DNA of 64,000 nucleotides. Origin: Thuidium tamariscinum. Its lineage: Eukaryota; Streptophyta; Bryopsida; Hypnales; Thuidiaceae. Position 1 is the stretch's first letter. Every line of letters begins with the position of its first letter. The stretch covers positions 1,860,001 to 1,924,000 of the forward strand of contig OX344750.2 of the NCBI GenBank assembly GCA_947034885.2, read 5' to 3'. Positions 3,561 to 57,188 of the stretch are shown here, piece by piece. Under the pieces are notes generated by a model, which saw only the letters and a list, made by a program, of their open reading frames with translations, ran no database searches and was not told where the DNA came from. Made by a program: the position numbers and the translations under genes.

Positions 3561-3603
3561 GTCAACCTGGAAGCACTTCTGGGGAAAACAGATGCCGGGG
3601 TAT

Positions 3604-3611
3604 TATTTATA
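3604..3611 (-). promoter_or_regulatory. TATA-box candidate for the permease gene
   Basis: Minus-strand TATAAATA in the context GGACGTATAAATAATA. It faces the permease gene but lies 1.65 kb from its ATG, so it would need a long or spliced leader. Such words occur by chance in AT-rich DNA; the call rests on position and orientation. Confidence 0.3.
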
Positions 3612-3916: not shown

Positions 3917-4022
3917 TTGGAGCAAGCCCATTGTGGGCAAAATTGTAAATAATGGTGGTTTACATTCAAGTTTACAAATGTGAACCACCATTATAATTTT
4001 GCCCACAATGGACTTGCTCCAA
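3917..4022. repeat. MITE-like perfect-stem hairpin
   Basis: Arms of about 47-50 bases (3917-3966 and 3975-4022) are near-perfect reverse complements: the left begins TTGGAGCAAGCCCATTGTGG and the right ends CCACAATGGACTTGCTCCAA. The loop is only about 8 bases. A transcript would fold into a long stem resembling a young small-RNA precursor. A diverged relative sits in the permease intron at 519-595. Confidence 0.75.
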
Positions 4023-11720: not shown

Positions 11721-11732
11721 ATTTCAGCGCTG

Positions 11733-12095
11733 ATGTGCCTTTTTCGTGTATCTCCTGAGATGGAAATATTTTTAGTTAATTTTTCAGTCGAAAAGAAATA
11801 GAAGAGGAATCTAACACAAGCCATTTCATATTTTTTTGAAGCATTATTGAATTAGTTATGAATTTTCAAACACAATTTGGTATAGGTCCCTATTTGTGAT
11901 CATAGGCCCTTGGAAACCCAATCCATCCATGCATAGTTTGAAAAAGAACCAAGGCTTGTTCAAAAACTAGCATTGCAACATGTATAAAGCAATAGAAATG
12001 GTTTCTAAGAGTGTCCCTTTCTAAATTTGAAATGAATGCTCGAATTAATCATTATTTCATACTTCCAATACTTCTAAGAAGGTAGTTGAACAACA
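11733..12095 (+). repeat. Dispersed repeat family R1, copy 1
   Basis: Aligns with 45401-45760 in the same orientation over about 360 bases. Shared words include CCTTTTTCGTGTAT, TTTCAAACACAATTTG, CCCTATTTGTGATCA, GCAACATGTA and AATTAATCATTATTTCA. Both copies carry many substitutions and no ORF; the family is unknown. Confidence 0.65.
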
Positions 12096-39120: not shown

Positions 39121-39299
39121 CTGTTCCTGGTATGCCAACTGTGTAGGCCGGTAAAAGTAGTGTGCAATATAGATATAGTAAAAATGGACACAAGAGTCAG
39201 CTAGGCTAGCAAGACTAGCTACTAAACCTCTAATGGCGTTATTACGTGGTCGGCGCAGATCAATGTGGTTACGATCTCGGCCGCGGTGGGGCGTACTTC

Positions 39300-39830
39300 G
39301 TAGAAGTAGGGGGCCTGCACTAGCTCGATGGTCAGGGTTGCTTCCGTCGCGTCACGTCCGTCCGTCAGGATGTCCGTCCGCTGACGTGACGGGGAGCCGA
39401 GCGTCCGTCAGGATGAAATTCACGACAGAATCCGCGATAGAGGATGAAAAATCGTGACAGCGGTCGTGGACGCCCTCACGGACGACCTCCGTGGACGACC
39501 TGGAAGGACGTGCTCGGTGGACAGTTCCGATGGACGGTCCTGGCTGACTGAACGGCTTGGATGGACACTCTGGGTTCTGCGGACGGTCCGGATCCGGTGG
39601 ACGGTTTTAGGGGACGGCCCCGCTCGCGGGGTATGGACGGCCCCGATGGACAGGACGTCCAGTGGACGGCCTGGACGGACGCCTCCAGATCGATGGTCTG
39701 GGTACGGTCTACGCTTGGGAAGGACGGCTTGGATTGAGAGGAAGGTTGGACGGCCTGGGTTCGATGGACGGCCTGGCCGTGCCGTCGACGGTCAGGATGG
39801 ACGGCCTGGGCTCCGTGGACTGGAACTCTT
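39300..39830. repeat. GACGG-rich CpG array upstream of the gag ORF
   Basis: Dense recurrence of GGACGG, GACGGCC, GTCCGTCCGTCAGG and GATGGACGGCCTGG. Very CpG-rich inside AT-rich DNA. It is less regular than the arrays at 48.5 and 55.7 kb. A weak TATA-like CTATATCTATATT lies between it and the ORF on the minus strand (about 39162-39174). Confidence 0.75.
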
Positions 39831-39974
39831 TATTTGTAAGACTTAAAAGTCTGAGTTCATATTTGCAATCAAAATTTTCTCATTAGTCTATGAGGTTTAA
39901 CCATCTCTCAAAAAATAATTTCCCATGGTTTTGTATTTTAGGCCTTCCATAGTCTAAATATAATATATATTTTG

Positions 39975-41215
39975 TATTTAAAAAAAAGGTTTTGGTGGTT
40001 TGAATCAAAAAAAAGGAAATGGTTTGAATGAAAATAACGTTAATGGTTTGGAATTGTGAATAAAAAAAAATGTAAAACTGGTTTTGAAAAAAAATGTGTT
40101 AATTGTTCGAATAAAAAAATTATGGAAATGGTTTGAATAAAAAAAACGTTAATGGTTTGAAATGTTGAATGAAAAAAAAATATAGAAAGGGTTTGGAAAA
40201 AAATGTGTTAATGGCTCGACCAAAAAAATTTGGAAATGGGTTGGGAAAAAAATGTGATTAGGGTTTGACTAAAAGAAATATGGAAATGGGTTGAAATGTT
40301 GGAAAAACAAATTTAGAAATGGTTTGGAGAAAAAATGTGTTAATTGTTTGACTAGAATAAATATGGAAATGGTTTAGGGTAAAAAAATGGCCAAGTTTTG
40401 AGTAAAGAAAAACGGTAATGGTATAGGGTGTTAGAAAGAAAAATATAGAAATGGTTTGGAAAAAAGATGGGTTAATGGTTCAACTAAAAAAAATATGGAA
40501 ATGGTTTGAATCAAAGAAAAAGAAAAAGGAAATGCTTTGAATTAAAAAAAAGTTAATAATTTGAAATGTTGAATACAAAAAAATATAGAAATGGTTTGGA
40601 AAAAAAATGTGTTCATGTTTCGACTAAAAAATATATGAAAATGCTTCGAATAAAAAAAAAATATGGAAATGGGTTGAATAAAAAAAAAGGCAATGGTTTG
40701 AAAGGTTGGAAAAAAACTTATAGAAAGGGTCGTGAAAAAAAATGTGTTAATGGTTTGACTAAAAAAAATATGGAAATAAGTTGGAAAGAAAATGTGTTCA
40801 GGGTTTGATTAAAAATAATATGGAAATGGTTTGAAATGTTGAATAAAAAACATTTAGAAATGGTTTGGAAAAAAAATGTTAATGCCTTAATGGTTAAGGC
40901 TCAAATTGGAAATAGTTTGAATCAATAAAATGGGAATGCTTTGAATAAAAAAGAACGTTGATGGTTTGAAATGTGGACGACAAAAAAATATAGAAATGGT
41001 TTAAAAAAATGTGTTCATGGTTCGACTAATAAAAATATGGAAATGGGTTCAATCTAAAATATGGAAAGGGTTTGAATCTAACAAATGGAAATGGGTTAGG
41101 GTAAAAAAATGGTTATGGTTTGACATGTGGAAAAAAAAAATGTGGAAAAATGCGGTGGGAAAAACTTGGGTTAATGGTTTGATTAAAAAAATTCGAAATG
41201 GTGGGAATCAAAAAC
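39975..41215. repeat. A-rich minisatellite array, left inverted arm
   Basis: Repeats of GGAAATGGTTTGAATAAAAA, GTGTTAATGGTTCGACTAAA, TATAGAAATGGTTTGG and CGTTAATGGTTTGAAATG in a higher-order arrangement of roughly 110-190 bases. The reverse complement of the same units forms the shorter array at 46612-47040. ORFs inside (such as 40566-40808) are by-products. Confidence 0.85.
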
Positions 41216-41574
41216 AAAAGCATATATACTTGTGGCATATGTAAAAAATAGAATTTTGGAAATTTTTAAAAGTGAACTTACAAAATCTACTTTAAGTGAA
41301 AGTATGGCATTGGATTTAAATGAACTTGTTGCACATACATTTCAAGCAAACGTATTGAGTATTCTTTTCATTTGTTCATGGTTAAGTTTTCAGTTTAAGT
41401 GTTTAACAAACAATACAGTTGTACGAGAAAAATGAAAATGCTTCATTGCCCAAAAAATGTACTTTTGCAACATGAGCAACAAACGCTCGTAAATGGTCGT
41501 CATAGCCAAATACTATTTACAATACTAATATACTATACATCCATCTAATGGCCTAACTCATCACCAGAAGGTAT

Positions 41575-43938
41575 TCAACCTTGTTCTGGTTCTACAATGC
41601 CTCTGCCTATACTATTTCTCAAAAAATCTTGCAATCCTTCTCTAGATTGCAAACTGTTCAACGTAGCCACTACGGTCCGATCATATCGATCGTGCAAGTA
41701 GGAAGAAATGGTTGACAACATTTGCACCTCATTGAACGTAGTGTCTTCGATGAACCTCATTTGTGCCTCATGATCCATGTCTTGGAGTATTCCGATAGGA
41801 TTTCCACTGGAGTCAAAAACCACATTCTCTGGATGTGGTTGGCGCACGAACTCTTGTCGGTCCAAGTCCCAATGGCCACCAGCAAGTTGGCCAAAAAATA
41901 CTCGCCGCCCTGGATCGCCCGCACTAATCAGCTTCTTGCACACCTCCGTAATCTCCGCATCATCGTTCCACGGAATGTCTTGCACGCTGCGCACGGCGAG
42001 GTGTCTACTGTCATGGCCCCACTTCCACATCCATATCATGTCATTACCCCAACTCCCTCTATTCTCATCGCCAGGCAAGTTCTCTTCGTTCAACTCGAAG
42101 TGTGGGGGCATGTAATCCTCCAACCCAAATTGGACGTACAACCGCCGGTGCAAAGGAGCCTTGCATTGTGCGCACCGCTTTCTTGTGACCATGTGCGGAA
42201 TGAGACATCCGGGGTGGTACATATGTCCACACGTTCCAAGGCAAAATCCACCCTCGGGTCCAAACGGTTCCATGCAAATCGTACACGTCGTTCCATCCTT
42301 CACAAACTCGGGAACTATGGGCCACAGTAAGGGGGCATTGCCTTCTCTATCCACGGGCCCGTATCGATATCTCGCGGTGTTGAATTGGAAGTCTAGATGC
42401 GGATGCCCGTCCCAATCAATGCTTGCATTATCGCGATTTTGGGGCAATGTAACTGGAAACATATCCTCCAGTCGGGCCCACGATGTCAAGCCAAAATAAC
42501 GTTGGCTACCATCTCTAAATTCTGCAGCTATTCTCCTGACTTCACGCTGCAGTTGTGCGACCTCGTTCATAGCCAAAGTGCATGCCAATCTCATGTTGCT
42601 CATGGCAAGCAACTTTTGCTCCCTCGTAGTTGACGTTTGTTGCAACAATCTATCCTTCATGGCATTTACAAATGCCAACTCGTCCTGTAGTCCCTCCAAA
42701 GCCGCTGATACAGTCTCCATGTTGGCCTTGGCCTCATTGCACTCGCCCTCTGCACGCTCCGCTCGTGCCACAAGGGCATCGTATGCCACGCGCTCAACGC
42801 TTATGAACTCTTGGCCCAATGCATCTGTTGATTGGGTTGCCACATTTGAACTCTCACCACGAAAATGTGGTGTTGGGAATATACCATGAGGCCGCACCCG
42901 GCGCACCGTCAATGGGTCAGCTGGCTCAATTAGACCATATGTGGCCCGCTCCACGACCTCATCCAATGGTGGAGTGCCATCCGTGCTTTGGCGACGTTCA
43001 CGTTCAAGTAAGTCAATGTTACTTGCTAGTAACTTAGCATTCGTTTCCTCCAAAGCCTTCACTTGTGCGTTGTGGGCTTGTACCTCCATCTCGTGCCTTC
43101 GCTCAGCTTTTGCACCATCCTCACGCAGCTTAATCACCAATGCACGTAATGCCTCTAATTCCCCATTTGCTCCAAATACTTCATTAATTGTCATGGACGG
43201 GGGAATTGGGTGAATGGCGAGTGGCATAGGCTCGCTTGGACCGGCAATGGGCGCCTCCAATTTGGGAGCCACCGGATTTTGTTCGTTGGCGCCTTGAGGT
43301 GCATTGTCGACCTCCATGGGGTCCGCGGCCGCCGCTTCGTCCCCTTGTGCCCCAGCCACTCCTTCGCCTTCCAATTGCACTTCAGGATTTGGTGGAATTC
43401 TACGGCTTTTAGTAGGGAAACGGCCGCCCCGTTGTTTAGCCGGATACGTGTTCCAATCCACGTCCTTGCCCAAAAAAACCTCTGCATACGCCATTTGACA
43501 CAATGCGAGGGTCCCATCCTTCTTCGAGAGGGTCCCCCAAAGTGCCAATGCCACCTCGGTCAACCGCTTCTTGAACGTTGGGTGTACGCAATACTTGATC
43601 AATGCAACGCCAGATCGCACTTGCGTCTCATTTCTCTCCCGTGGAAAATGGCGGTTGATGTGGGCCCAGTCCACGTATCTCTGACATGTGGTGCGGGTCC
43701 ATGGCTCAAGCGCCTGTTCCCACCCGTGCCCGGCCAAAACTTCTCCAGTGTTGAAAGTCGCCCAGTCTACAGTGCTCCTGTTCCCACGACGCCTCCTGTA
43801 TGGGGGTTCACCTTCATGGGTTACCATCTCCTGGTTTTCTACCACTGGGGGGTGATTTCCAGCAATTACCACCTCCTGGTTCTCTGCCATGGGGGGGTTC
43901 TCTACATGTAGTACCATCTCTCCAGGGTTTAAGGCCAT
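41575..43938 (-). CDS. RING-H2 zinc-finger protein, 787 residues, transposon-embedded
   Basis: ATG at 43938. Order: Glu/Pro-rich start; helical region about 80-165 (TTCQRYVDWAHINRHFPRER, LTEVALALWGTLSKKDG); acidic spacer; coiled coils about 255-320 and 383-475; RING-H2 about 552-594. The RING reads CX2CX14CXHX2HX2CX10CX2C (CTIC, CGHMYHPGC, CAQC), all eight ligands present, so E3 ubiquitin-ligase activity is plausible. The C-terminal 190 residues match nothing I know. The frame is open throughout, suggesting recent activity or selection. A TATA box (44140) and a GACGG array lie upstream; inverted minisatellite arms flank the unit. Role unknown: host gene family or transposon cargo. Confidence 0.8.
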   Translation of the reverse strand: MALNPGEMVLHVENPPMAENQEVVIAGNHPPVVENQEMVTHEGEPPYRRRRGNRSTVDWATFNTGEVLAGHGWEQALEPWTRTTCQRYVDWAHINRHFPRERNETQVRSGVALIKYCVHPTFKKRLTEVALALWGTLSKKDGTLALCQMAYAEVFLGKDVDWNTYPAKQRGGRFPTKSRRIPPNPEVQLEGEGVAGAQGDEAAAADPMEVDNAPQGANEQNPVAPKLEAPIAGPSEPMPLAIHPIPPSMTINEVFGANGELEALRALVIKLREDGAKAERRHEMEVQAHNAQVKALEETNAKLLASNIDLLERERRQSTDGTPPLDEVVERATYGLIEPADPLTVRRVRPHGIFPTPHFRGESSNVATQSTDALGQEFISVERVAYDALVARAERAEGECNEAKANMETVSAALEGLQDELAFVNAMKDRLLQQTSTTREQKLLAMSNMRLACTLAMNEVAQLQREVRRIAAEFRDGSQRYFGLTSWARLEDMFPVTLPQNRDNASIDWDGHPHLDFQFNTARYRYGPVDREGNAPLLWPIVPEFVKDGTTCTICMEPFGPEGGFCLGTCGHMYHPGCLIPHMVTRKRCAQCKAPLHRRLYVQFGLEDYMPPHFELNEENLPGDENRGSWGNDMIWMWKWGHDSRHLAVRSVQDIPWNDDAEITEVCKKLISAGDPGRRVFFGQLAGGHWDLDRQEFVRQPHPENVVFDSSGNPIGILQDMDHEAQMRFIEDTTFNEVQMLSTISSYLHDRYDRTVVATLNSLQSREGLQDFLRNSIGRGIVEPEQG

Positions 43939-44139
43939 AGTACCTTCACACAATGCCACAACACGGTATGTATGTACAGATGACTATGCTCTACCTCCTG
44001 TTGCGTGAGGGCAACTGGAATGTGGCAAAGCAATAGCCAAATGCTTGACTTCCTCCCGAATTGCAATGCAAAGCTTTTTTCAAGCTAGGACAGAGCAACT
44101 CAAGAGAGAAAGCAAGGTTAATTGTGGCTGAATTTGGGA

Positions 44140-44146
44140 TTTATAC
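44140..44146 (-). promoter_or_regulatory. TATA box of the RING-H2 gene
   Basis: Minus-strand GGGGAGTATAAATCCC, about 200 bases before the ATG, followed by a pyrimidine-rich start region (CTTGCTTTCTCTCTTGAG). AACAGGTAGAGC at about 44000 could be a leader intron donor. Confidence 0.65.
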
Positions 44147-44209
44147 TCCCCATTACCAAGCCTCGTTAGGAGTGTTAATTTGTGTCTAATCACATCGCCA
44201 TGCACCACC

Positions 44210-45010
44210 TGGAGCCGTTGATGCGGACGGCCATCGACGGCTGGGGCGTCCAGGGAGCGTCGACGGAGGTTCGGGAGGCCGTCGACAACTTCGGGATGAC
44301 GTCACAGAGGCCGTCCACAGGTCCGGCGCCGTCAACGAGTTCGAAAACACTCACGAGTTCGAAAACACTCACGAGTTCGAAAATCCATAATTACTCCGCC
44401 GAATTGCAAATTCGATGGCCAAAAATGGCTCTTCGTGACGGCCTGCCCGTGGTCTTGGACGGCCACTATTCCACTGTGGACAGCCTGCCCGGACAGGTCG
44501 ACGCTCCGGCCCGCAGCCAAATTCGTTGCGGACGGCCTGCCCAGGTCCTGGACGGGCCCGTGTTGCTGGACGGTTTTCTGGACGCCCTCCGTCCCCGTGA
44601 CGGCCTGCCCAGGGCCTCGACGGCCAGGGAGGACTGACCCCTCTATTGCCCCTCCGGAGGGTAAATGTAAAAAATTCCCCCCTAATTTGTGCCGATTAAA
44701 TTTTAGATTTCAACACGTCCCCTAGCTAAATCGTGGTCTCTGATTCCAAATAAGAATTCAGAATTTGCAAAAAAGAATTTGTGTGAAAAATAAAAGAAAT
44801 TCCAGGGTTTTCTACAAGGGTAAAAAAGGGGCAATAGAGGGGTCAGTCCTCCCTGGCCATCCTCGACAGGCCCGTCTTCCTGGACGGTTTTAGGGACGCC
44901 CTCCGTCCCCGTGACGGCCTGCCCTGGTCCTGGACGGGCCCGTCTTCCTGGACGGTTTTCTGGATGCTCTCCGTCCCCGTGACGGCCTGCCCAGGTCCTG
45001 GACGGGCCCA
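44210..45010. repeat. Two GACGG-rich arrays in head-to-head arrangement
   Basis: Array 1 (44210-44640) and array 2 (44857-45010) share GTCCCCGTGACGGCCTGCCC, GGACGGTTTT and TCCTGGACGGGCC. Between them a 31-base inverted repeat (44623-44653 and 44827-44857; core GGAGGACTGACCCCTCTATT) encloses a 173-base AT-rich centre. Array 1 is next to the RING promoter. The palindrome could mark an element terminus or two abutting elements. Confidence 0.75.
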
Positions 45011-45019
45011 ATAGGTGGG

Positions 45020-46611
45020 CCCAATATATACTGAATTTCAATTAGGCAGGTGGAATCCAATTAGACAGCCAAGATCCAATTACGCAATTGGTATTCATTT
45101 AGGCAGTTGAGATGCAATAAGCTGTAAGACAGCAGAATTTTAATGTGGGTGAATTGGTGAAGATTGCCAATGCAGTACCTGTATACTGTAATTTTTATTG
45201 GAGCTCAGTGAGTTAACATTCACAGCTTGCATTTCTTTTTAAAAAAATTTGGGATTCATTCATGGTTGTGAGAAGTGTGTGACTCATTCAGATCTTGTAT
45301 TTCTTTTTAAATTTTTTTGGGATTCATGATTGTGACAAGTGTGTTAGCCATGTATGCATGGTAGGAGGCAAAGATTGCACTTATTTAAATTAAGAGTTGA
45401 TTTGCCTTTTTCGTGTATGTCTTTAGATGAAAATATTTTTAGTTTATTTTTCAGTCAAGGAGAAATAGATGAGGAATCTAATACAAGTTGTTTCATATTT
45501 TTTGGAAGAAAAATTGAATTAATTATTAATTTTCAAACACAATTTGTCATAGGACCCTATTTGTGATCAGTAAGCCTTGAAAATCTATACATGCACAGTT
45601 TCTAAAAGAATCTGGTTTGGTGAATAAACTAGTAATGCAACATGTAAAAAATGGTTTGAAATGGTTTCTAAATGTGTCCCTTTCAAAATCTGAAATGAAT
45701 TCTTCAATTAATCATTATTTCAAAACAATTTCACATTTGAAAGAAGGTAGTTTAACAACCATTTTTTATTTTGAATAAAATTAGTAGACACCTATAAGTA
45801 CACTTAGTTACGATTGAATCCATTGTAACTCTAAAACCATCCATTCATATAGTAAAAATCAAATCTTAGCATGCTTCAATATAATCCACAATTAGTTTCC
45901 TCACAATGAGCTTTCCAATTCAGATTTCAGACCCTCCTATAGTCCTATTAAGCAGATAAAAAAGCCTGCATAGTTTATTAACCTCCGTGTGAGCTTCCTA
46001 CCATAATAGTTGATTTGAGAGCAAGAGGTCCTTGAACTTCTTCATTTTAAATGTTAGAATGGATTTGCAGACTTACTGATACTTGTGTTTTTAAACACAA
46101 TCGGCTTATTAAATTCCCTAAGTTTTCCTTATTATATAAATGAATGTGAATATGCTCTTGTGCCTTTAAATTGGTTTTAAATATTGCATTAATTAGGATT
46201 GTATACTATAGTTTAATTTCTCTATTGTGTGCTTTGTTTTCTTATAAATGGTGAAATATAAATAGTTGTAGCTTTGATTTTTGATTTTCAAACTCTTTAG
46301 TGGCATATAGATAGCATATGCTGTGCGTTTCACCATGTTCTTAGTTCATCAAAATCCTTGAAGCTCACATGTTTCCTTGTATACAATGTTTTTGATCTTC
46401 TCAATATTTTGTAATTATGAAATGTAGAAAAAAAATAGGGTGTTCAAAAATAGTCCTTCAAAGAATTTACAAAAGAAAATAGGGTACTCTAAAATACACT
46501 CCGGTAGCTTTATTCTACTAATAGGGAGGGAAAAAAACATGAGAAGGACATAAATACCCCCCCATTAAATACCCCATTATCGCACGTGGTTACCAAAAGA
46601 TAAAGGGGGTG
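45020..46611. other. AT-rich DNA holding one dispersed repeat
   Basis: No gene. A short run of AATTAGGCAG/CAATTAG-type words at 45040-45110 and duplicated GGGATTCAT with TTCTTTTTAAAWTTTTTT (45230-45320) precede the R1 repeat copy. Small ORFs lack motifs. Confidence 0.6.
45401..45760 (+). repeat. Dispersed repeat family R1, copy 2
   Basis: Second copy of 11733-12095; same orientation, about 360 bases aligned with frequent substitutions. Confidence 0.65.
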
Positions 46612-47040
46612 AACCCCCAAGTCTATTATTCAAACCATTCCCATTTTTTTTATTCAAACCTTTCCCATTTTTTTTATTCAAACCATTCCCATTTTTTTTA
46701 TTCAAACCATTTCCACATTTTTTTCCAAACCAAATCATTTCCATATTTTTTTAGTCGATCCATTAACCCATTTTTTGGTCCAAATCCCTTCTATATATTT
46801 TTGCCCAACACCCGAAACCATTAACGTTTTGCTTTATTCACACCACTTCCATTTTGGGGATTCAAACCTTTTCCCTATTTTTTTTAATTGAACCATTAAC
46901 ACATTTTTTTCCAACCCATTTCCACATTTTTTTTATTCGAACAGGGCTCGACAATTTCTTTCCAAACCCTTTCTATATTTTTTTGGGGTAACTTTTTTAA
47001 CCCTTTGACGTGTATTTTTGGTTCAAACCATTAACACACT
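46612..47040. repeat. T-rich minisatellite array, right inverted arm
   Basis: Repeats of TTATTCAAACCATTCCCATT, AGTCGATCCATTAACCCA, CCATTTCCACATTTTTTT and CCGAAACCATTAACGTTTT. These are the exact reverse complement of the unit types at 39975-41215, in the same higher-order sequence. Confidence 0.85.
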
Positions 47041-48261
47041 TGCGGAATTCTAACTCTTTCTTCTAGGGTTTATCATACACTTCGGCAAAGAGAGGATTAG
47101 AGCGGTTTAGGGTTCCGCAGAAGAGTCTGAATTCTGAAAATTGGTTGGTGCCCACTAACGGAGTCTTGCTTGCCAGTGCCCCCGTCCTAAACTCCTAATT
47201 AGTGCTCGCCATTCACTTATACTTTCATAACTCATAGTTTCATAACTCATAAGTAGAGTACATGACTACATGACCAGAATATTATGCAATATAGTAATAT
47301 ACTAATATGTACATGTAGTACTAATCTAATTTCCTAAAAAATACATGCCTAGTCGGATGGCTCCCGAATTTAAAATTGAGAAGTTTAAATCCCTACATAT
47401 CCGTAGGGCAACTTCTAAAATTTAGGGTCCATCACTTCAGCCATTCTCGATATGAGATGAAGCACTGGAAGGCAATGTAAAATTTTAGCCGTGTACATTA
47501 CACACTACCCACCAACAAGTTTAGGATCATCCAATTCTGCCATTGAAACAAATTTTGCATAATATAATCAAGCATACCAAATGTGGATTTCACATAAGTC
47601 AAATTCAGTATTTGGTGAATTGTTTCATTCAAAACTCATGGTTTAGCATGATAATTGATTATAAAACATTGGTGATGAATTAGCATTAATTTGCAAAGAG
47701 GAGATATGTAGGAAACATCCATATGCACATCTTTCATACCAAAAAACATCCTAGATTCCTAGTAAGTTACAACAATATAATTGGGTTGAAGAATTCAATT
47801 AGGCATTTTATGTGACCCCATTTTGTAAAATAGATGTATGTACGCTTGAATTAGATTTAGGCAAAGTCATTGTACGGAAATGATTTAAGTTCCTCAAGGA
47901 GTTATAGTGTGACCATCAAATAGCAAATGCTAATTAAGCCGGATTAAATTATTAAAATTAGCTCCTATTTCCTAAATTTACGGGGGAGAATGAAATTAGA
48001 TGGAAAGGGAGGAAGTAGAGCTTTTTGACGACACAACTGAGAACGGATACGCATCAACCGAAGAGGTATGTGTTTAGACTAGAACCAATAAGTTTAATCA
48101 TTTCATGTTATTTCTTTTAATTACTTCAAAATTTGCAAAATTAGATTGACGCTAGGAAAAGAAAGATCAATTACCGAATACAAATTATAATGCACTTCTT
48201 AAGTTATTAAATTACTAAACTAGACATTTTACCCTCATTTACGCAAAAGTAAAAAGGAACT
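47041..48261. other. AT-rich intergenic DNA
   Basis: No gene. It carries a piece related to the foldback element (47545-47800). The remainder shows no ORF or array. Confidence 0.6.
47545..47800 (+). repeat. Diverged fragment of the 7.4-8.3 kb foldback element (left arm)
   Basis: Shares CATACCAAAT, TTTGGTGAATT, GATAATTGATTA, ATTGGTGATGAATT and AACATCCATATGCACATCTT with 7540-7720, in the same order. No matching inverted arm follows, so it is a one-armed relic. Confidence 0.65.
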
Positions 48262-48300
48262 TAAACCCTAAACCCTAAACCCTAAACCCTAAATCCTAAA
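48262..48300 (+). repeat. Short interstitial telomere-type tract (CCCTAAA)n
   Basis: About five units of the plant telomere repeat, the last degenerate (ATCCTAAA). It sits 220 bases before the GACGG array of the kinase-like gene. Single telo-box words (AAACCCTAA) also occur in the hAT array near 56120. Confidence 0.85.
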
Positions 48301-48499
48301 ACCTTCGGTTGGGCAAGGGCTTTAGGCTGGGTTTTTGACCTTCTCAAAATTCAGTGTCAGCCCTTAGATGGGCGGTTTCTGGCCTGTTACCTTATTACCT
48401 TGTAGAGGAATTTCAGTTGCACGAGGCTTGCCATTAAGTCTTCGCTGGCATCTTCACCGCCCTGTGCTTCCCCGACGATCCCCTTAATGGTTCAGAATT

Positions 48500-48925
48500 C
48501 CCGGGACGCCCTGTGGGGTCGCGTGGACGGCCTCGTTCCACGACGGACCCCCGAATTCCCAGGACAGCTTGTGCGTCCTGTCGACGGTCTCGCAGTTCCT
48601 CGACGGTTTCCTGGACGGCTTCGAAATTCCCGGGACGGATGGGTGCGTCCCGTCGACGGCCTCATCGTCCTCGACATTCCCCTCGACGGCTTCCCAATTC
48701 TGAGGACGGCGAGCGCGTCCCCTCGACGGTCTCGCAATTCCTCGACGGTCCCCACGACGGCTTCGAAATTCCCGGGACGGATGGGTGCGTCCCGTCGACG
48801 GCCTCATCGTCCTCGACATTCCCCTCGACGGCTTCAGCGCGTCCCCTCGACGGTCTCGGAGTTCCCGACACCCCTCGACGGCTTTCGAGTTCCTTGGACG
48901 GATCGGCCGTCCATGCGACGGCTCG
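48500..48925 (+). repeat. GACGG-rich CpG array upstream of the kinase-like gene
   Basis: Many CGACGGCCTC, CGACGGTCTCGCAGTTCC and CGACGGCTTC words. A segment of about 80 bases beginning CGGCTTCGAAATTCCCGGGA occurs twice nearly without change (about 48616-48697 and 48757-48837), so part of the array duplicated recently. The array ends within 10 bases of the TATA box. Confidence 0.8.
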
Positions 48926-48933
48926 CCAACGAC

Positions 48934-48940
48934 TATATAA
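48934..48940 (+). promoter_or_regulatory. TATA box of the kinase-like gene
   Basis: GACTATATAAGGTGGG, directly after the GACGG array and about 200 bases before the ATG. A leader intron may span 49083-49134 (TTTGTGAGTACT donor; T-rich tract and TCAG acceptor one base before the ATG), though 52 bases is very short for a plant intron. Confidence 0.7.
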
Positions 48941-49135
48941 GGTGGGCCAGGTCCCCCACTTTGCACGAGTCTCTCCTGCTCTGACGGTGCTCTCTTGCCT
49001 TGGATTGGTTGCAGTCCTTGCTTGGGAGCGCGGGTGCTTGCGAGGAGGCTCGGCTGAGGAAGGGGGGATAGTTTTCACATTTGTGAGTACTGAACTCTAA
49101 TTCCTTGGTTTTACCATCGCATATTTTTTTTCAGA

Positions 49136-50797
49136 ATGGACGGGCGAGGTGCGTCGAAGCGCAAGGTTGATGAGTGGTTTTCAGGCATCGGAGATCCTGT
49201 TGGTGAGCAGTCTCCAGAATCCATTGACTGCGTATCAGAGGCAGTATTGGCCGGAGAAGGGGTCGGTGGTGCGGCTGGAGGAGAATCTTCGGGGGCCAAG
49301 AAAAAAAAGAGCAGGCGGAGGCACAAGGCTACGAATACAGACGACTGGCCAAGGAAGGCTGCGACCAGGAAAGTGCAGGAAGTGGCATTGGATTTTTTGG
49401 AGCAATATACGATTGCTCAATTGAATACGACCTACGTCTCGCGTGGATTGCAAGGGGTGGAGACAATTAAAAAAAAATTCACCCACATGTTTTGGACAAC
49501 AATGGGCGAGGATGAGTGGCTTGAAGATCGCACAAAGGAACACTTCCGTCGTTGGCTTGACGAACAAGTGCAAACTTGTGTTTTCAACATCGCCCAAGTC
49601 GCCGCATCGATAAAGGGCTTCAAACGAGATGTAGCGCCGAAGCAACAAGCATTGCATTTGTTGCACAAAAAGGTGTATTGGTGGCATGACGCAATGCGAG
49701 CGCTGTCTTCCAGCAATATCCGCTCTGCCCCATGGTTTCAACAGAGCCAAAGCTTGTCCCTAGGCCAAGCAGGTGCGGGAGGAGTGGTATTTCTTGAACG
49801 AGGAGTGGTGGTGGTTCCATTGTCAGGCCACAACAAACAAGGGGGGCACAGGAGGGTGCGTAAAGTGAGCCTCCAAAATTCAAGGCACATTCCCCCCATG
49901 ATGGAATTGGCGGGCAAGACAGCCCTATATGTGGATCAATTGAAGAAGTCGCGGGAGAAGTTGTCCATCGAGGCTTTGGTTTGTCCATGTAATCATCCAG
50001 GGGTCATAAAATTTTTTGCTATAAATGACATGACCATGGAGTGTTATTCTCAATGGTGGAATGGAGGAACATTGGGAGCCATGTTCGCATTGGACCAGAA
50101 AAACCGAGATTATGCTGAGATCGGGGAGCTTGCCTACCATGCAACTCCACAGACGATGCAAGAAGCCAAAAGACTCTTGGCTTATCGTAGAAACCGCACC
50201 GAGCTTGCATGGGCGTTAATTTGCATCGTGGATGCGGTGCAACAATCTTCGGTGCTCCACAACGACATCACGCCAGAAAACATCATGTTGCATTTTCCGA
50301 ATGATGATGGGCGAACAGTGTGGATTGGGCTATGTGATTGGGGAATGGCTAGTCGTATCAATGAAGAAACCCATTCTTTGTACCAGTTTCAATGTGCAAG
50401 CCAAATGCGGGCTACACGTCAGAAATGTTGGTGGGTGGCCCCTGAATTGATGTATGTTCCTGGAGAGGCGGGCACTTCGGTATCCCCCACTCGTGCAGAT
50501 GGGGCACCGTGTGTTAGTATACATACAGACGGATATGCTGTTGGGAAGCTTGCGGAGAAGATATGGAAGAAAGACCGCGAAAATACGGAAATGCTTCCCG
50601 ACCATACAGCGTTTGGTACATTTCAAGCCACATTGGGCGAATTGTGCAAAGAGGACCCACTACAACGACGCACGGTTACGTACGCCGTGGGACGAATTAG
50701 TGGCGCCCCCTTATTTTGGACTCCACCCGTTGATTGCTACCGCGAGGCCCGCAAGGAGCAAGCACTTCTACAAGAACAAGCAAGGAATGAAGATTAG
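49136..50797 (+). CDS. Protein-kinase-like protein with altered catalytic residues, 553 residues
   Basis: ATG right after a TCAG acceptor-like sequence. Residues 1-75 are disordered with a basic patch (AKKKKSRRRHK, possible nuclear signal). 75-220 is helical and unrecognised. From about 240 a kinase fold can be followed: catalytic loop HNDITPEN (H375, N376, D377) in place of HRDxKxxN; DWG (401-403) in place of DFG; APE intact at 435-437; TDGYAVGKLAEK as subdomain IX. The HRD Asp, loop Asn and DFG Asp are kept, but the loop Lys is Thr and no clear VAIK lysine was found, so activity is doubtful. AATAAATATATG (about 50907) may be the poly(A) signal. The frame is intact. It could be a pseudokinase cargo gene or a kinase family of transposon origin. 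Confidence 0.75.
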   Translation: MDGRGASKRKVDEWFSGIGDPVGEQSPESIDCVSEAVLAGEGVGGAAGGESSGAKKKKSRRRHKATNTDDWPRKAATRKVQEVALDFLEQYTIAQLNTTYVSRGLQGVETIKKKFTHMFWTTMGEDEWLEDRTKEHFRRWLDEQVQTCVFNIAQVAASIKGFKRDVAPKQQALHLLHKKVYWWHDAMRALSSSNIRSAPWFQQSQSLSLGQAGAGGVVFLERGVVVVPLSGHNKQGGHRRVRKVSLQNSRHIPPMMELAGKTALYVDQLKKSREKLSIEALVCPCNHPGVIKFFAINDMTMECYSQWWNGGTLGAMFALDQKNRDYAEIGELAYHATPQTMQEAKRLLAYRRNRTELAWALICIVDAVQQSSVLHNDITPENIMLHFPNDDGRTVWIGLCDWGMASRINEETHSLYQFQCASQMRATRQKCWWVAPELMYVPGEAGTSVSPTRADGAPCVSIHTDGYAVGKLAEKIWKKDRENTEMLPDHTAFGTFQATLGELCKEDPLQRRTVTYAVGRISGAPLFWTPPVDCYREARKEQALLQEQARNED

Positions 50798-51013
50798 AGA
50801 ATAGTATTTTAGTGGCAATGTAATCGTAGACGTACCTTAGTACTTGCTTTTACCACAGTATAGTCCACGAACTTTGCGTCACTGAATTTTGTACTAACTC
50901 CTTTTTGAAATAAATATATGTAAATCTTTTTGTTCCATTCGAGTATGATTCCGGTGAGTGGATTTGTGAGTAGTTCTGTCCCTTCGTAAATTTTGGACTG
51001 AATGCCATGTTAA

Positions 51014-51924
51014 CCCCTAAAGGACCACGGCCGTTTTTCAACCCAAAACCACTCAAAACTGCCATTTTTGTTCCATTCATCCATGAAAAACAAAAAAACT
51101 AAATTTTTAGAATCTAACCATAGGATCTTGAACTTTACTTAACTAAGATGATGTGGTGAAAATTTCATGAAGTTTGACCGTATAGATAGGAAGATATGAG
51201 CATTCAAAGTTGGAAAACAAAGTTTTCTTAAACACTAGTTTGCAACTTCAAATGACTTTGTCCTCCATTTATGTAATCTTTTTGGACTACAGACCTTGAA
51301 TTAAAATTTTTTTATTGAGAAATTGAGCTAAGAGCTTAGGAAAAAAAATTCACAAAATAAAGACTTTTTGTCATTCTTTAAAAAATTGTCAAGTAGATGT
51401 AGGTCCAAGATTGAAAGAAAAACTAAATTGCAAATATCTCATAGATGGAATTGAAACACAATAATCCCAATGGTGAGATTGTTCTAGAAAACAAAATCAA
51501 CCTTGTCCAACAATTTTTTTTTTTAAATTGTGGAAATTGCATTCACAAATGAATCCTAGAAGTTATTTTTTCAAGAAGATGCTTAGATTGCCCGAAAAAC
51601 AAGATTGTTCATAACTTTCACATTACTAATCCAAATGGAATGAATCAAAGCTTTACTTGTAGACAAAAATATAATCTATAAGAAAAAAAAATTATTTTTT
51701 TAATTTTGAAGTTTCTGTAGATTTTTTTTCTGCCCGGCAACATAAAAATAATGTTTATGATGGCATAACTTTTGCTCCCGGTCACCAATTGAAAAAAATT
51801 GAATATTTCCACGGAGCTAATCAGTTTTTTTATCTTATGTGAAAATTTCAATAAAATTCATTAAAAATTGAAGTCACAAGTACTTGCCCTAATTCTTCAA
51901 GTTCCCCGAGGGGACTTTTAGGGG
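51014..51924. mobile_element. TTAA-flanked inverted-repeat element, 911 bases
   Basis: The left end CCCCTAAAGGACCACGG and the right end (complement) CCCCTAAAAGTCCCCTCGG are near-identical inverted termini, flanked by TTAA on both sides (51010-51013, 51925-51928). TTAA target sites and CCY termini are typical of the piggyBac superfamily. The interior is AT-rich without a transposase, so it is non-autonomous. The 1374-base element at 61429 has the same style of ends. Confidence 0.75.
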
Positions 51925-51928
51925 TTAA

Positions 51929-52309
51929 TTCAGTACTTTCAATCATTTTCTCCATATTCCAGATTACATTTGTTTTCTTGTACATGGCAAAATTCATAAT
52001 GATCTCAAAATATCCAAGCATGTAGGTAACCAACTTCGAAGAATGAATCCAAATTTAAGAGTATAGAACACATGGCAAACGACAAAGCAAATATTTCCAT
52101 TTCTTGGGACAAATATGCATAAATGGATCCGTTGTTGCGTTGTAGAATTTGTGACATGTGAAGATAAAAAATTTCTACCCATGCGCCCTACATGAGCACA
52201 GGAAGCATGTGTAGTATTTATAATTAATGCCGAATTTCACATGCAAGGTATTCAGCCTTACACAATATTACATAAGATGACATGGAGACATTTTTTTCCC
52301 TAGATGCTC
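51929..52309. other. Spacer between the TTAA element and the hAT gene
   Basis: AT-rich with two ORFs of 61-62 codons lacking motifs. It should contain the 3' UTR of the hAT transposase (minus strand) and possibly the element's terminus; a hAT-type end was not identified. Confidence 0.5.
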
Positions 52310-55300
52310 TCAACGTCTTGCACGTGTACGATTAGGAGCCATGCTCCTTGCAGCAGCCTCTCGCGTGGTTGCTTGATTGTCTTGAGGTGCAGGTGGAGGA
52401 CCTCTACGAGTCCCTCTATAATCACTATCTCCCGGAACTTCACCATCTTCACCTATACTAGGACCCATGGATTCATCATCATGATTGGACGTTGCCCTAC
52501 CGACTTCGCTTGGTGAGTTGTCAGGGCTGTCTGAGCCTTCACCTACTATAGAAGCCAATCTGCGGATTGTTCGCCCTCCTACTCCATCTCCAGCGGTATC
52601 CACACTGGGCCCCGTCGGTCCAGGGAGAAGACCTTCGCGGAGAAATGGTATACTCGCCGCTTCTTCCCTTCTTAGCCTTCTACGTGTTCTTCTACTCACT
52701 CGTTCATTGGTAGGGCTTTCTTCACGTGGCCGCGGGCGTCGATTAGTAGTGCGTGTAGGCGGTGCAACGGGTTGTTCTGAGGATGGAGGTGCATTCCTTC
52801 GCTCGGTCATATTTAGAATTGGGAAGAGACCGGCCAATCGTGTACCGACTGATGGAGTTTCTTGGTTGGGGCGGACTCTAGAAGATGAAGGCCGTGCTGA
52901 AATTTGGACGGGTGGATCATCCAAGCTAGGCGCTTGTGGTCGCACGCCGATCGTGTCTCGAAGCAATGTGCGAAAGTCTATCTCGACACCAATGGGGGAT
53001 CTGTGGCTACGAGTGTTCCGCGCCACTCGGGGATCTGTGGCAACGACCTCATCTTCGCCTTGTCTTTCTACCACAACGACATGTTCATGTCTCCGGGTAC
53101 GCATTTCTTCTTCAATCGGCCCTATAACCGGCGAAGGTGGGGCTTCAACCCCTTCGTTTTGATTTCCACCACTTGACCCCGCAATCGATGTACGTGGCAT
53201 CCATGACAGACTGCCATCATTTCCCCCGTTGTCATTTCCATCCTCATCTCCCCCGTGGTCATTTCCATCATTATCCGCGCCATCAAAGTCAAATACGGAC
53301 TCGTCAATTAGGGGACCCCTTTCTTGCCTTTCATCCAAAGGTCGAAATGGTGGATCATCATCGCCATTGGAACTGTCGTCTGAGTCATCGTTGTTAGCGT
53401 CTGACATAACCGAACCACGATCCAAGCCATCTGATTCGGTTGTCATGGAATCTTCGGACAACATGTTCTCAGTGTACCATCGTGCTGCATCCGCCGCACC
53501 CCTTTCCCTGAGAGTCCTCAAATTGGTATAAATGTAAACCAATTCCTCCGCGCGCTCAGATGTCAATCTGTTGCGAGACTTGCTGTGGACAAATGAATAC
53601 ATGCTCCAATTGCGTTCGCATGATGATGCGGAACATACTTGTGCGAGGATCCTTCTTGCAATAGGTGCAAGCGTATGAGCAGCGGCTCCGAGAAGATCCC
53701 ACCATTCATGCGGCTCCAAATTCAAAGTATTCACATCGGGAAGTCCAACGAACATGCCTCGGCGGTCTCGAAAGGATTGGTACTCAAACAAAGCGGCTGC
53801 ATATCCCAACCCTCCAACTGCCAATTTGCGTAGTACTCTAAGAATGGCCTCCTTTGCCTCGTTATCGTCTATTAGTATAATTTCATCAAGGAGGAATGGA
53901 TTGAGCAGGGCAGCTGCGTAGTGCAAATCAGTCTTCATCAAATCCCATCGTTCGTAAAACGCGCATTCAGCACGGTCCGCATAATTTGCCTCCAATGAAA
54001 ATGGTCGATTCCTCAAAGCCAAAACATGCTTTTCTAGCTTCTTCATCACGATCCATGCTTTGCCCATGACCGGATGTTTTCCATCAAACTCTCGAAGAGC
54101 CACCAACACAGGCTCTACCATATGCACAAAGTTGAGACACCTCCTCCAGAACTCGTCCTTTCGAACCCTACGTCGAACCTTTTCTGCCTTATTGTATATT
54201 GCAGCGTTCGAGGACCTCACATATTCGTTCCACTGCGGATCATGGACTGTAGATTCCACGGCTTCCTTGACCTCGGCCAAACGCTCGATCATGAGGAACA
54301 TGGTCGCAAAACGTGTCTCAATGGGATTCTTCAACATGAGGTTAGGAGAATGTCGTCGGAAAATGGCGAGTGGCATGTGATGCGTGTGAATGAATTTCAC
54401 GATTGATTTTGCTTTCTTCACCATTTTGACCACCCAAAGTTGCTTGCCCCAATCTTCAAGTAGAAGGTCAAGTGCATGCGCGGAACAACCTTGGAAATAT
54501 AGGTGAGGGAATTTGCGAGTAATTTGAGTACCAGCCAAACGCATGTTTGGCGCATTGTCCGTACAAACTTGCACCACATTCTGTCCCCCCACCGCGTCAA
54601 TGTAATCGATCATGCGATTAGCCACATAAACAGCGTCTTTGCTTTCGCCTGTAGTGTCCACCGATCCCAAAAATACTTCTCCACTCGTGCACGACAACAT
54701 TACATTGATCAATGGCCGATGGCTGACATTGTCCCATCCGTCAGAACATATAGTGACACCGTACTTGTGGATAGGCCCCTTTGTCTTCTCCGCTACCAGT
54801 GCAGCCACTTCCTCCTTTGTTGATGTCATGAGCTTCGTACGTATGGCATTGTAAGGTGGAGGTTTGTAAAGAACTCTGGACTCGGAGGTTGATTTCACGG
54901 CATCCACAAAAGCGGGGTGTCTCACCACATTGAATGGGATATTTGCTTCGTAGAAAAACTTTGCCCACTTCTTGTCTAGTACTTGCTTTTTGGATGTGTC
55001 CATCCCTTCTTGTACGGATAATTGCCTCAGCGGTCGACTATGGGTCGAAGAAGGGACAGGCGCCTCTGATGATCGAACTTGAGAATTTTGGCCCAAAGTA
55101 TTTCCTCCCCCTCCACTAATTGAGATTGAAGCATTGGGTAATTCTTGATTACGTACCACCCTCGTTGGATTCGATGACGGTGATGTCACTTCCACATCAT
55201 GTTCCTCTTCGTCTTCGGAGACCGTAGGAACATTCCCCCCACAATTGAAAAACATAGCCTTCACTGCTGCACTGGCCTTGTTGCACATTCTCACTCCGGG

Positions 55301-55444
55301 GAGGGTGTCATTTCGTCTATAACCCAAGTGGAAAAGCAAGCGATCCTTGCGGTAACTAATCTTCGTTTTGCAGAACTTGCATTCCACTTTCCCATCCTCT
55401 TGTAGCCTGTACCAGGGTTCCCATTGTGTCCTCCCCCTTCCCAT
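52310..55444 (-). CDS. hAT-family transposase (BED finger, DUF659, hAT dimerisation domain), 1044 residues, apparently intact
   Basis: ATG at 55444; an earlier GTG-initiated extension is unlikely. BED-type finger at about residues 8-45 (W, C22 and C25 in CKFC, then FHLGYR). DUF659/RNase H-like core with CSDGWDN (D235) and CTDNAPNM (D296); the third acidic residue is in SCERNW (E610). The dimerisation motif continues VHSKSRNRL and LVYIYTN. Beyond about 690 the protein has an acidic Asp/Asn/Gly-rich stretch and a Pro/Arg-rich tail of about 350 residues, unusual for hAT proteins. The frame is open throughout, so a recently active element is likely. A TATA box (55659-55664), a probable leader intron (donor GCAGTAAGTG, acceptor TTTGTGCAG just before the ATG) and a GACGG array lie upstream. 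Confidence 0.9.
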   Translation of the reverse strand: MGRGRTQWEPWYRLQEDGKVECKFCKTKISYRKDRLLFHLGYRRNDTLPGVRMCNKASAAVKAMFFNCGGNVPTVSEDEEEHDVEVTSPSSNPTRVVRNQELPNASISISGGGGNTLGQNSQVRSSEAPVPSSTHSRPLRQLSVQEGMDTSKKQVLDKKWAKFFYEANIPFNVVRHPAFVDAVKSTSESRVLYKPPPYNAIRTKLMTSTKEEVAALVAEKTKGPIHKYGVTICSDGWDNVSHRPLINVMLSCTSGEVFLGSVDTTGESKDAVYVANRMIDYIDAVGGQNVVQVCTDNAPNMRLAGTQITRKFPHLYFQGCSAHALDLLLEDWGKQLWVVKMVKKAKSIVKFIHTHHMPLAIFRRHSPNLMLKNPIETRFATMFLMIERLAEVKEAVESTVHDPQWNEYVRSSNAAIYNKAEKVRRRVRKDEFWRRCLNFVHMVEPVLVALREFDGKHPVMGKAWIVMKKLEKHVLALRNRPFSLEANYADRAECAFYERWDLMKTDLHYAAALLNPFLLDEIILIDDNEAKEAILRVLRKLAVGGLGYAAALFEYQSFRDRRGMFVGLPDVNTLNLEPHEWWDLLGAAAHTLAPIARRILAQVCSASSCERNWSMYSFVHSKSRNRLTSERAEELVYIYTNLRTLRERGAADAARWYTENMLSEDSMTTESDGLDRGSVMSDANNDDSDDSSNGDDDPPFRPLDERQERGPLIDESVFDFDGADNDGNDHGGDEDGNDNGGNDGSLSWMPRTSIAGSSGGNQNEGVEAPPSPVIGPIEEEMRTRRHEHVVVVERQGEDEVVATDPRVARNTRSHRSPIGVEIDFRTLLRDTIGVRPQAPSLDDPPVQISARPSSSRVRPNQETPSVGTRLAGLFPILNMTERRNAPPSSEQPVAPPTRTTNRRPRPREESPTNERVSRRTRRRLRREEAASIPFLREGLLPGPTGPSVDTAGDGVGGRTIRRLASIVGEGSDSPDNSPSEVGRATSNHDDESMGPSIGEDGEVPGDSDYRGTRRGPPPAPQDNQATTREAAARSMAPNRTRARR

Positions 55445-55658
55445 TGCTCCCACTGGTTCTTCACTTGAAACTGCACAAACAAAACAGGTTAGTATTCAGT
55501 TTGGATGTGATGTGGAAATAACACTTACTGCTTTCACAGCAAGTGTTCCTCCCACACACTCTTCTTGGACTTCACTCTAGTGCAATGGCTGTGTGCCAAC
55601 CAAGTCATAAGAGCAGAGATCAGCAAGGAAAAGTGACCTTCAAATACACGGCTTGTGC

Positions 55659-55664
55659 TATATA
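55659..55664 (-). promoter_or_regulatory. TATA box of the hAT transposase gene
   Basis: Minus-strand CACAGTATATAGCACAAG, about 215 bases before the ATG and about 15-20 bases downstream of the GACGG array: the same layout as at 48934. A leader intron is probable between about 55530 and 55466. Confidence 0.65.
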
Positions 55665-55679
55665 CTGTGAAGGCCTGGC

Positions 55680-56260
55680 AGCAGTCGTCCAGTCGACGGC
55701 CTGTCCGTTGGCGCACTGTGGACAGCCGCGGACGGGACGTCGTGGCCGTCCCCGCAGACGCTCTGGCCGTCCAGCGGACGTCCCGCTGTCCAGACGACGG
55801 CCTGGCCGTCCCCGCAGCGTGGACGGACTCTGGACGTCGTGACCGTCCGCTGAACGGAAAACTGTCGAGGCAACGGCCTGGCCGTCCCGTCGAAGTGCAC
55901 AAGCCACGGACGCTCTGGCCATCCCCGCTGCGTGGACGGACTCTGGACGCCGTGACCGTCCGCTGAACAGAAAACTGTCGAGGCGACGGCCTGGCCGTCC
56001 CGTCGAAGTGCACAAGCCGCGGACGCTCTGGCCGTCCCCGCTGCGTGGACGGACTCTGGACGCCGTGACCGTCCGCTGAACAGAAAATTGTCGAGGCGAC
56101 GGCCTGGCCGTCGCGCCTAAACCCTAAAGCCGCGGACGCTCTGTCCGTCCACGCGACGGCCAGTCGTCGAGGCGGCCGACAGGCCGTCTGCGCGCTGTCG
56201 ACGGACTTCATCCGCGCTGTCGACGACGCCGTCAGCATTCGGGACGGCCTCTGACGCGTC
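55680..56260. repeat. GACGG-rich CpG array upstream of the hAT gene, with 113-base tandem units
   Basis: Three nearly identical units with a period of 113 bases, marked by CTGTCGAGGCRACGGCCTGG at 55862, 55975 and (TTGTCGAGG) 56088. Each contains GTGGACGGACTCTGGACG and CGTGACCGTCCGCTGAAC. Further GACGGCC words extend to the stop codon of the ORF at 56259. A telo-box CTAAACCCTAAA lies at about 56115. The high CpG content suggests recent amplification or absence of methylation. Confidence 0.85.
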
Positions 56261-57188
56261 ATGACATCCCGACGGGAAAAGCCCACGTCACGTCAGGATA
56301 GACAACCCTGTCGATGGTGGAAATAGCCTCTGCAAACTGGGGCCAAGTCTCAGCGTTGGTGAAGAATGTAGCGTCCTTGAGTCGATTGGGTCGGCTCCTC
56401 CTTCCTCGACTGGGATACTCGTGGTGTAGTGGATGGTAGCGGGGCTGATGTACTTGGCCGTCTCCTGGCAAGTAGTAATTCGAGGCGCGGTAGTCGTCCG
56501 TGTCTTGACACCCCTCGCAAGCGGATGCGTACTCCGCGATGTACTGTAGCTGGTGGGCAGTGCCCAATGTAGCAGGGACCAGTCGTGATGAAATCCCGCG
56601 ACAGCCGTCCAATGTTAGTGGACCAGTGCTGAGGTGTCCACACCGAAAATCATCCGATTGTAAGTACGGGTTATCGATGAACCGGTCGCGGTCTAAGGGC
56701 GGGTCACCAAACCGGTATTGGGTGCCCGAATCGTCGCTAAGAGGCGTCGGGGCCTCGTATCGAATGCCAATGAAAGGCAGCTCTAGCAGGGGCTCAAAGG
56801 TCTCAAAAGATGGGTATCTAGCCTCGAAACACGCCTCCGTGTATGCACTCTCGAATCTCCACGTGGCTACCGCCACCTCCCAATAGGAGGTCAAGCACCT
56901 ACCGATCTCAGCAATGTCTACTCCAAACCCCCCTCCTTGGATAGAGTGTGCAATGGAAGGGGTGTGCTGATTTGGAGAGATCAAGTACTGTCGTGCTAAC
57001 CCGTTCCAAAACTCGAAGGATACTCCCAACTCTACTGGTCCTCGCAGCAAGTCGGCGATCGATAACACCTTGCAACTAAAGGGGTCGACCCACGAACTAA
57101 CAAATGGTTTCCTTAGCGGCTTCAGGGGTAGATCCAAGAAGTCAAGTTGGAAAGCCTCCAGACATAAGCGGTACTCCTCTCCCTTCAA
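56259..57188 (-). CDS. Unrecognised 309-codon ORF without ATG, in gag position next to an LTR-like edge
   Basis: Open frame from 57188 to a TGA at 56259, preceded in frame by TAA and lacking any usable ATG near its start. It must therefore be an exon, a frameshifted piece or a decayed gene. The protein has mixed hydrophobic and acidic character (LDFLDLPLKPLRKPFVSSW, LEVAVATWRFESAY-like helices, a Tyr/Asp-rich CQDTDDYRASNYYLPGDG and a basic RGRRSRPNRL), with no family motif I know. It starts 80 bases inside the LTR-like edge at 57267 on the minus strand, where a gag would lie. The GACGG array abuts its stop. Confidence 0.45.
   Translation of the reverse strand: MKGEEYRLCLEAFQLDFLDLPLKPLRKPFVSSWVDPFSCKVLSIADLLRGPVELGVSFEFWNGLARQYLISPNQHTPSIAHSIQGGGFGVDIAEIGRCLTSYWEVAVATWRFESAYTEACFEARYPSFETFEPLLELPFIGIRYEAPTPLSDDSGTQYRFGDPPLDRDRFIDNPYLQSDDFRCGHLSTGPLTLDGCRGISSRLVPATLGTAHQLQYIAEYASACEGCQDTDDYRASNYYLPGDGQVHQPRYHPLHHEYPSRGRRSRPNRLKDATFFTNAETWPQFAEAISTIDRVVYPDVTWAFPVGMS

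Follow-up and report, generated by a model that had tools for sequence, protein, structure and literature searches.

A very probable three-gene hAT element in the moss Thuidium tamariscinum with GACGG arrays at its termini and promoters that its own transposase may read

Introduction

Plant hAT elements are usually regarded as one-gene transposons. Ac encodes one protein, and the terminal inverted repeats (TIRs) of many hAT elements, Ac among them, start with CAGGG. Hermes, the hAT element of the housefly, is small and single-gene, and its repeat word contains AAGT, unlike the GACGG that is the subject of this study. VANDAL elements of Arabidopsis are members of the Mutator superfamily.

According to PMC3260210, several AAACGG copies in the Ac ends are bound co-operatively by the Ac transposase, while the BED finger of Hermes is described as a CCHC finger that binds subterminal repeats (PMC10368747). 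VANC proteins are described as binding tandem motif arrays in the non-coding parts of VANDAL elements (PMC5735166), their targets being fast-diverging tandem repeats of a short motif (PMC5735166, PMC10398659). Pack-TYPE elements are described as non-autonomous and as containing gene fragments (PMC8903248).

Here, we describe a locus in a 64-kb stretch of Thuidium tamariscinum DNA (the window; all positions are those of the window), in which 39333-56310 (16,978 bp) is, judged from its sequence, very probably one hAT insertion, and probably a full-length, autonomous hAT DNA transposon. It shares with Ac/Ds a hAT transposase, an 8-bp target-site duplication (TSD) and a short TIR. Both Ac and this element cluster an ACGG-containing word in their ends, AAACGG in the former and GACGG in the latter, but Ac measures 4.6 kb (both points on Ac as given in PMC3260210) and this element 17 kb with three genes; unlike Ac, it has arrays of about 0.5-0.8 kb, which are found also at internal promoters. 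It resembles Hermes in that the C-terminal region of the transposase matches by profile, and a C-x2-C...H...C pattern, presumed to bind DNA, may correspond to the CCHC BED-type finger that acts on several subterminal repeats in the account of PMC10368747. As in VANDAL elements, a multigene DNA transposon carries short-motif tandem arrays in its non-coding parts (for VANDAL as described in PMC5735166), but the transposase belongs to another superfamily, here hAT, and the Pfam scan of the element's three proteins found neither a MuDR-type transposase nor a VANC protein. As in Pack-hAT elements, hAT ends enclose extra coding sequence; the difference is that the transposase ORF is intact and the accessory genes are full-length, which sets this element apart from Pack-hAT. 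In the open-licence literature, searched by titles and the openings of abstracts, the matches listed included no hAT element that carries a kinase or RING gene besides its transposase. A multigene hAT element with putatively co-ordinated promoters, as described here, may be new.

Results

Table 1. Positions of the features discussed, in the coordinates of the 64-kb window.
Feature	Position	Strand	Remarks
TSD, left copy, TCGATGGT	39325-39332	.	exact 8 bp
Left TIR, CAGGGTTG	39333-39340	+	exact 8-bp inverted pair
A1, left subterminal array	39333-39830	.	19 GACGG (13 on +, 6 on -)
AT-rich tandem repeat, AAATGGTTTGAATAAAAAA-like	39980-41218	.	downstream of RING gene
RING-H2 protein gene, 787 aa	41575-43938	-	complete C3H2C2 ligand set
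TATAAA of RING gene	44140-44145	-	207 bp before ATG
A2, RING promoter array	44205-45010	.	24 GACGG; 68-bp unit at 44860-45009; split by 44619-44861
Foldback/MITE-like inverted-repeat insertion	44619-44861		inside A2; 35-nt arms, 97% complementary
AT-rich repeat, second block	about 46626-47032		inverted relative to 39980-41218 block
A3, kinase promoter array	48470-48930	.	22 GACGG, 19 on +; 71/142-bp unit
TATA of kinase-like gene	48934		202 bp before ATG
Protein-kinase-like gene, 553 aa	49136-50797	+	catalytic signature residues kept
hAT transposase gene, 1,044 aa	52310-55444	-	finger, DUF659, Dimer_Tnp_hAT, about 400-aa low-complexity tail
TATA of hAT gene	55659-55664	-	220 bp before ATG
A4, right subterminal and hAT promoter array	55660-56310	.	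27 GACGG; 113-bp unit, 3.1 copies
Right TIR, CAACCCTG on +	56303-56310	-	exact 8-bp inverted pair
TSD, right copy, TCGATGGT	56311-56318	.	exact 8 bp
Interrupted 326-aa frame	57188-56319 with 39332-39229	-	just upstream of Ty3-like gag ORF

The features of Table 1 include a TSD of the hAT type, identical on either side of the element, and a short TIR of the hAT type, identical in 8 of 8 bp, beyond which the element ends diverge. CAGGGTTG occurs twice in the window, in inverted orientation and exactly at the element ends, and CTGACGTGACG likewise occurs twice, at 39381 (+) and 56286 (-), both copies pointing inward near the ends. When the flanks are joined with one TSD copy, the resulting empty site reads as an open frame of 326 aa, of which 290 aa precede the junction and 36 aa follow it; the larger part of this frame had no Pfam match.

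A TIR and a TSD are weak evidence when taken alone, since shuffled sequence yields such pairs frequently. The window holds three pairs of exact 8-bp TSD and exact 8-bp TIR, of which the other two are AT-rich low-complexity sequence, while 100 local shuffles gave a mean of 1.76 pairs of any kind and 28 GC-containing 8+8 pairs altogether; with the TIR relaxed to 7 bp, 15 pairs fit the window, and three of these join A1 and A4 array words. Therefore, the element claim rests on a combination of evidence, and it is the CAGGG start, the placement of CAGGGTTG and CTGACGTGACG, the restored 326-aa frame and the hAT transposase gene inside that make it firm. Another hAT-like candidate, 827-5758, has one mismatch in its TSD and was taken as a chance occurrence.

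All four arrays and three intact ORFs fall within the element, where the order from the right end is A4, hAT (-), kinase-like (+), A3, A2, RING-H2 (-), AT-rich repeat and A1, so that the kinase-like and hAT genes converge. The initial annotation had listed four different coding cassettes, each with a GACGG-rich array on its 5' side; with one TIR/TSD pair, the arrays instead belong to one insertion. A mobile promoter that had inserted four times independently is ruled out by this single pair and by the lack of a second CAGGGTTG pair in the 64-kb window. The supposed fourth cassette, a gag-protease ORF with A1 as its 5' array, falls away, as the element boundary 39332/39333 runs between the two and the ORF lies outside the TIR/TSD, in the interrupted flank; no TATA box facing gag was found with the patterns used in 39000-39400. 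The RING and kinase genes, proposed to be passengers, do travel with hAT, since a single TIR/TSD pair encloses all of them, but the evidence does not favour separate passengers.

Several insertions appear to be nested in the element. The first annotation placed A2 correctly but ended it too early (44210-44640), as the array continues to 45010 and is interrupted at about 44619-44861. The inverted repeat 44619-44653/44827-44861 was considered as the end of a RING-only element and rejected in favour of a small foldback insertion, because array units run on both sides of it; CCTCGAC is seen by eye on both of its flanks. Two further repeats, 45390-45759 and 47569-47734, have counterparts elsewhere in the window, the former being 80% identical to 11723-12094, so that this repeat family is found both inside and outside the element. 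These nested insertions (foldback in A2, repeats 45390-45759 and 47569-47734) make it probable that the element originally measured less than 17 kb.

The word content of the arrays was compared with 500 dinucleotide-preserving shuffles per array, with GACGG counted on both strands. It can be seen that GACGG exceeds the shuffle maximum in all four arrays, which bears out the earlier observation of common short words at these positions: 19 in A1 (shuffle mean 4.8, maximum 11), 14 in the first part of A2 as originally delimited (2.5, maximum 9), 22 in A3 (4.8, maximum 11) and 26 in A4 within its originally given bounds (5.1, maximum 12). GACGGCC occurs 6, 8, 4 and 14 times in A1, A2, A3 and A4, respectively, with shuffle means of 0.2-0.4, although for A3 the shuffle maximum is also 4. 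The best 6-mer common to all four arrays was GACGGC, and the best two common 5-mers were ACGGC and GACGG (200 shuffles). Sharing of 8-mers exceeded the shuffle maximum in one of the six array pairs (A2-A4), and sharing of 10-mers in five of the six, the exception being A1-A3. The four loci thus show excess similarity over shuffled sequence, as had been expected of them, but mainly in short words.

Each array has its own higher-order repeat, as was also claimed at the outset: Tandem Repeats Finder gave units of 26 bp for A1 (2.3 copies only), 68 bp for A2, 71/142 bp for A3 and 113 bp for A4. The arrays are therefore not simple copies, and k-mer sharing rules out copying of one from another beyond the short words. 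Inside the element are 34 of the 38 GACGGCC, all 14 GACGGCCTG and 104 of the 148 GACGG of the window, and 92 of these 148 lie in the four arrays. CpG observed/expected is 1.1-1.4 in the four main arrays and 0.75 in the second part of A2. The ratio of GACGG on the plus and minus strands is 19:3 in A3, 16:8 in A2 and 12:15 in A4. A1 and A4 start at the two element termini.

A TATA box lies at most about 60 bp from each of A2, A3 and A4, and some 200-220 bp before the respective ATG, in agreement with the TATA boxes initially reported toward the RING, kinase and hAT genes. No element gene reads away from A1. The alternative raised with the initial annotation, a shared promoter array, is accordingly borne out in part, by A2, A3 and A4, which stand just upstream of TATA.

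Telo-boxes are plant promoter motifs. Telomere-like TAAACCC repeats (6.1 copies, 48262-48304) are present upstream of A3, and a single AAACCCTA stands at 56119, within A4. Possible short 5'-UTR introns precede the start codons of the kinase (49083-49134) and hAT (55528-55471) genes, with GTGAGT and GTAAGT donors and pyrimidine-AG acceptors as seen by eye.

The transposase matched the Pfam families DUF659 (E 1.2e-36) and Dimer_Tnp_hAT (E 5.9e-10). Residues D242, D303 and E617 (alignment numbering), which we take to be the catalytic D-D-E residues, are invariant in a 14-row alignment. At its N-terminus is a pattern C22-x2-C25...H39...C54, with H46 and C61 nearly invariant in the same alignment; zf-BED of Pfam had no match in this protein. 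The tail of about 400 residues is rich in R, P, G, D and S. In a profile search of the PDB, four sequences matched, all of them transposases and two named Hermes, and among the candidates scored the organism-named hAT relatives are from land plants, with 25-33% identity.

The kinase-like protein scored above the Pfam Pkinase cut-off (33.6 vs 31.7 bits), and K260, E278, N381, D400 and G402 are present in 22 of 22 kinase rows, with D376 in at least 90%. Its structure model (mean pLDDT 72.7) gave a general kinase fold in Foldseek, with a best E of 1.8e-8 and a TM by target of 0.56, and no close family by this method. The RING Pfam match of the RING-H2 protein is slightly below the cut-off (26.9 vs 27.3 bits), while a 5-row alignment shows no variation at any of the eight zinc ligands; Pfam gave no family for its N- and C-terminal parts at the search levels used, and its structure model (mean pLDDT 49.2) was left unused. 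Both accessory ORFs are full-length and have relatives as whole proteins, and Pfam found no VANC-like or DNA-binding domain in either product.

The protein searches covered about 5.8 billion proteins, and in every search the 7,995 candidates with most words in common were scored; among these, there were at least 62 kinase, 4 RING and 67 hAT relatives. Kinase and hAT relatives occur on contigs of equal size in two cases. At size 6480 (P0004, P0070) both are close relatives, with 75% identity for the kinase and 65% for hAT, and at size 15563 (P0021, P0078) both are distant (33% and 44%, respectively). In a jitter null, equal-size coincidences had a mean of 0.20, with 1.6% of trials giving at least two. 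These two pairs of equal contig size and matching divergence suggest that kinase and hAT are linked in the relatives. None of the contig sizes of the RING relatives recurred in the kinase or hAT lists.

Scans of genome contigs with the hAT and kinase proteins found hAT relatives at two loci and no kinase relatives; four scans of IMG/VR found no relatives. The first locus, L001, is a eukaryotic transposon contig of 6,291 bp (CADCWO010000266.1) that had been assigned to a cyanobacterial bin, probably through contamination from a plant. Encoded on it are the C-terminal part of a hAT transposase (49% over 266 aa) and, next on the same strand, a RING-H2 protein, arranged as they are on the minus strand of our window. 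This RING-H2 protein is 31% identical over 360 aa, from mid-protein through the RING, and 30% over 115 aa at the N-terminus, and its RING Pfam match is above the cut-off (36.9 bits); no kinase match was found on L001. The second locus, L002, is a distant hAT (31%) standing alone on a 3.9-kb contig, for which no TIR/TSD was found. Judged from the hAT-RING arrangement on L001 and the equal-sized kinase/hAT contigs, the gene set is probably old.

The 12 GACGG of L001 are scattered, GACGGCC occurs once, and a GACGG array is absent from this contig. One GACGG is seen by eye next to a TATAAAA that lies some 380 bp ahead of the RING start codon. At the RING-side end, in the position corresponding to A1, a GC-rich tandem array with a 21-bp unit (CCGTTCCCTCCCCATCCGCCC) runs off the contig. 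Since this end array is GC-rich and made of another word, terminal GC-rich arrays may persist while their words change, and on this single contig such a change at a kept place may fit a fast-evolving protein-DNA pair.

The organism-named kinase relatives among the candidates scored are two Ceratodon purpureus proteins and one protein from a bacterial bin. One of the former, the kinase-like KC19_VG055000 (P0061), stands for 126 member sequences. Its VG tag presumably refers to the V sex chromosome, and its family may be a high-copy transposon gene on that chromosome.

Discussion

We lean towards the explanation that the locus is a single three-gene hAT element whose transposase reads the GACGG arrays. 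The TIRs, TSD, empty site, ORFs and placement of the arrays are read from the sequence, while for the binding we argue by analogy with Ac and Hermes, which makes the hAT protein the likely reader. The putative N-terminal CCHC zinc finger of the transposase would recognise GACGG(CC), and the dense terminal arrays would concentrate this protein for synapsis and excision, the role that AAACGG plays in Ac and the AAGT-containing repeats play in Hermes. If GACGG is the site of this element's transposase, its presence also at internal promoters would put the element's genes under this same protein, so that one protein could set the expression of all three, including its own, through GACGG at three promoters. 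The short word could spread by local tandem duplication, which would account for the own longer unit of each array. The RING and kinase proteins might serve the element by acting on host proteins, either altering or eliminating them. Among the points against this explanation, L001 has no GACGG array and no kinase match, hAT stands alone on L002, zf-BED of Pfam had no match in the transposase, and A2 and A3, both internal, are unneeded for transposition.

A more far-reaching form of the transposase reading can be drawn, in which an old plant hAT regulon has a self-made protein reading the termini and three promoters, host silencing is countered by an E3 ligase and a kinase that have co-evolved, and the array words and their reader change together as in VANC systems; we consider this form doubtful. 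A 17-kb three-gene hAT element with one word at its ends and promoters would offer a simple test case for genes co-ordinated by a transposase, and it could show whether proteins directed against host control occur on DNA transposons beyond the Mutator superfamily. The kinase-like relatives in Ceratodon purpureus, with one cluster of 126 sequences, indicate that some annotated moss families may be transposon genes, and we infer that this may hold for some of the families annotated as 'kinase' and as 'RING'.

The same element could also have arrays that are promoter or enhancer satellites to which a transcription factor of the host binds, with the near-terminal place of some of them simply following from gene position. 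In three cases the array is followed by a TATA box, the three boxes being about equally far from their ATG, and the orientation of GACGG varies by array, as in enhancers. However, A1 has no outward element gene, and it begins at the left terminus just as A4 does at the right, and in Ac and Hermes such words are described as bound by the transposase (PMC3260210, PMC10368747); we find a host factor unlikely, if worth keeping in mind.

It is less probable still, and in our judgement quite unlikely, that the arrays are targets of an anti-silencing protein encoded by the same element (the RING, the kinase or the long-tailed transposase) in the manner of VANC. The arrays are CpG-rich and lie in non-coding parts, the word is kept while the longer unit differs between arrays, and it is not kept in L001, where hAT is 49% identical; VANC targets are described as rapidly diverging tandem repeats (PMC5735166, PMC10398659). 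On the other hand, VANDAL elements are not hAT, and the Pfam result for the RING and kinase proteins, given above, also speaks against it.

It is very improbable that the composite is accidental, the RING and kinase cassettes having been non-autonomous members of this family that inserted into or beside a simple hAT element. AT-rich blocks in opposite orientation do flank the RING-A2 segment, and 45.0-48.4 kb holds other repeats, but CAGGGTTG marks the outer ends only and no internal end, RING neighbours hAT on L001 with order and strand unchanged, and relatives of the kinase and hAT share contig sizes. Hardly credible, finally, is functionless CpG-rich low-complexity DNA grown by slippage, to which the own unit of each array and the modest sharing of longer words would be suited, since one word stands well above shuffles in four differently built arrays at termini and promoters, while the densest 500-bp stretch outside the element holds 6 GACGG.
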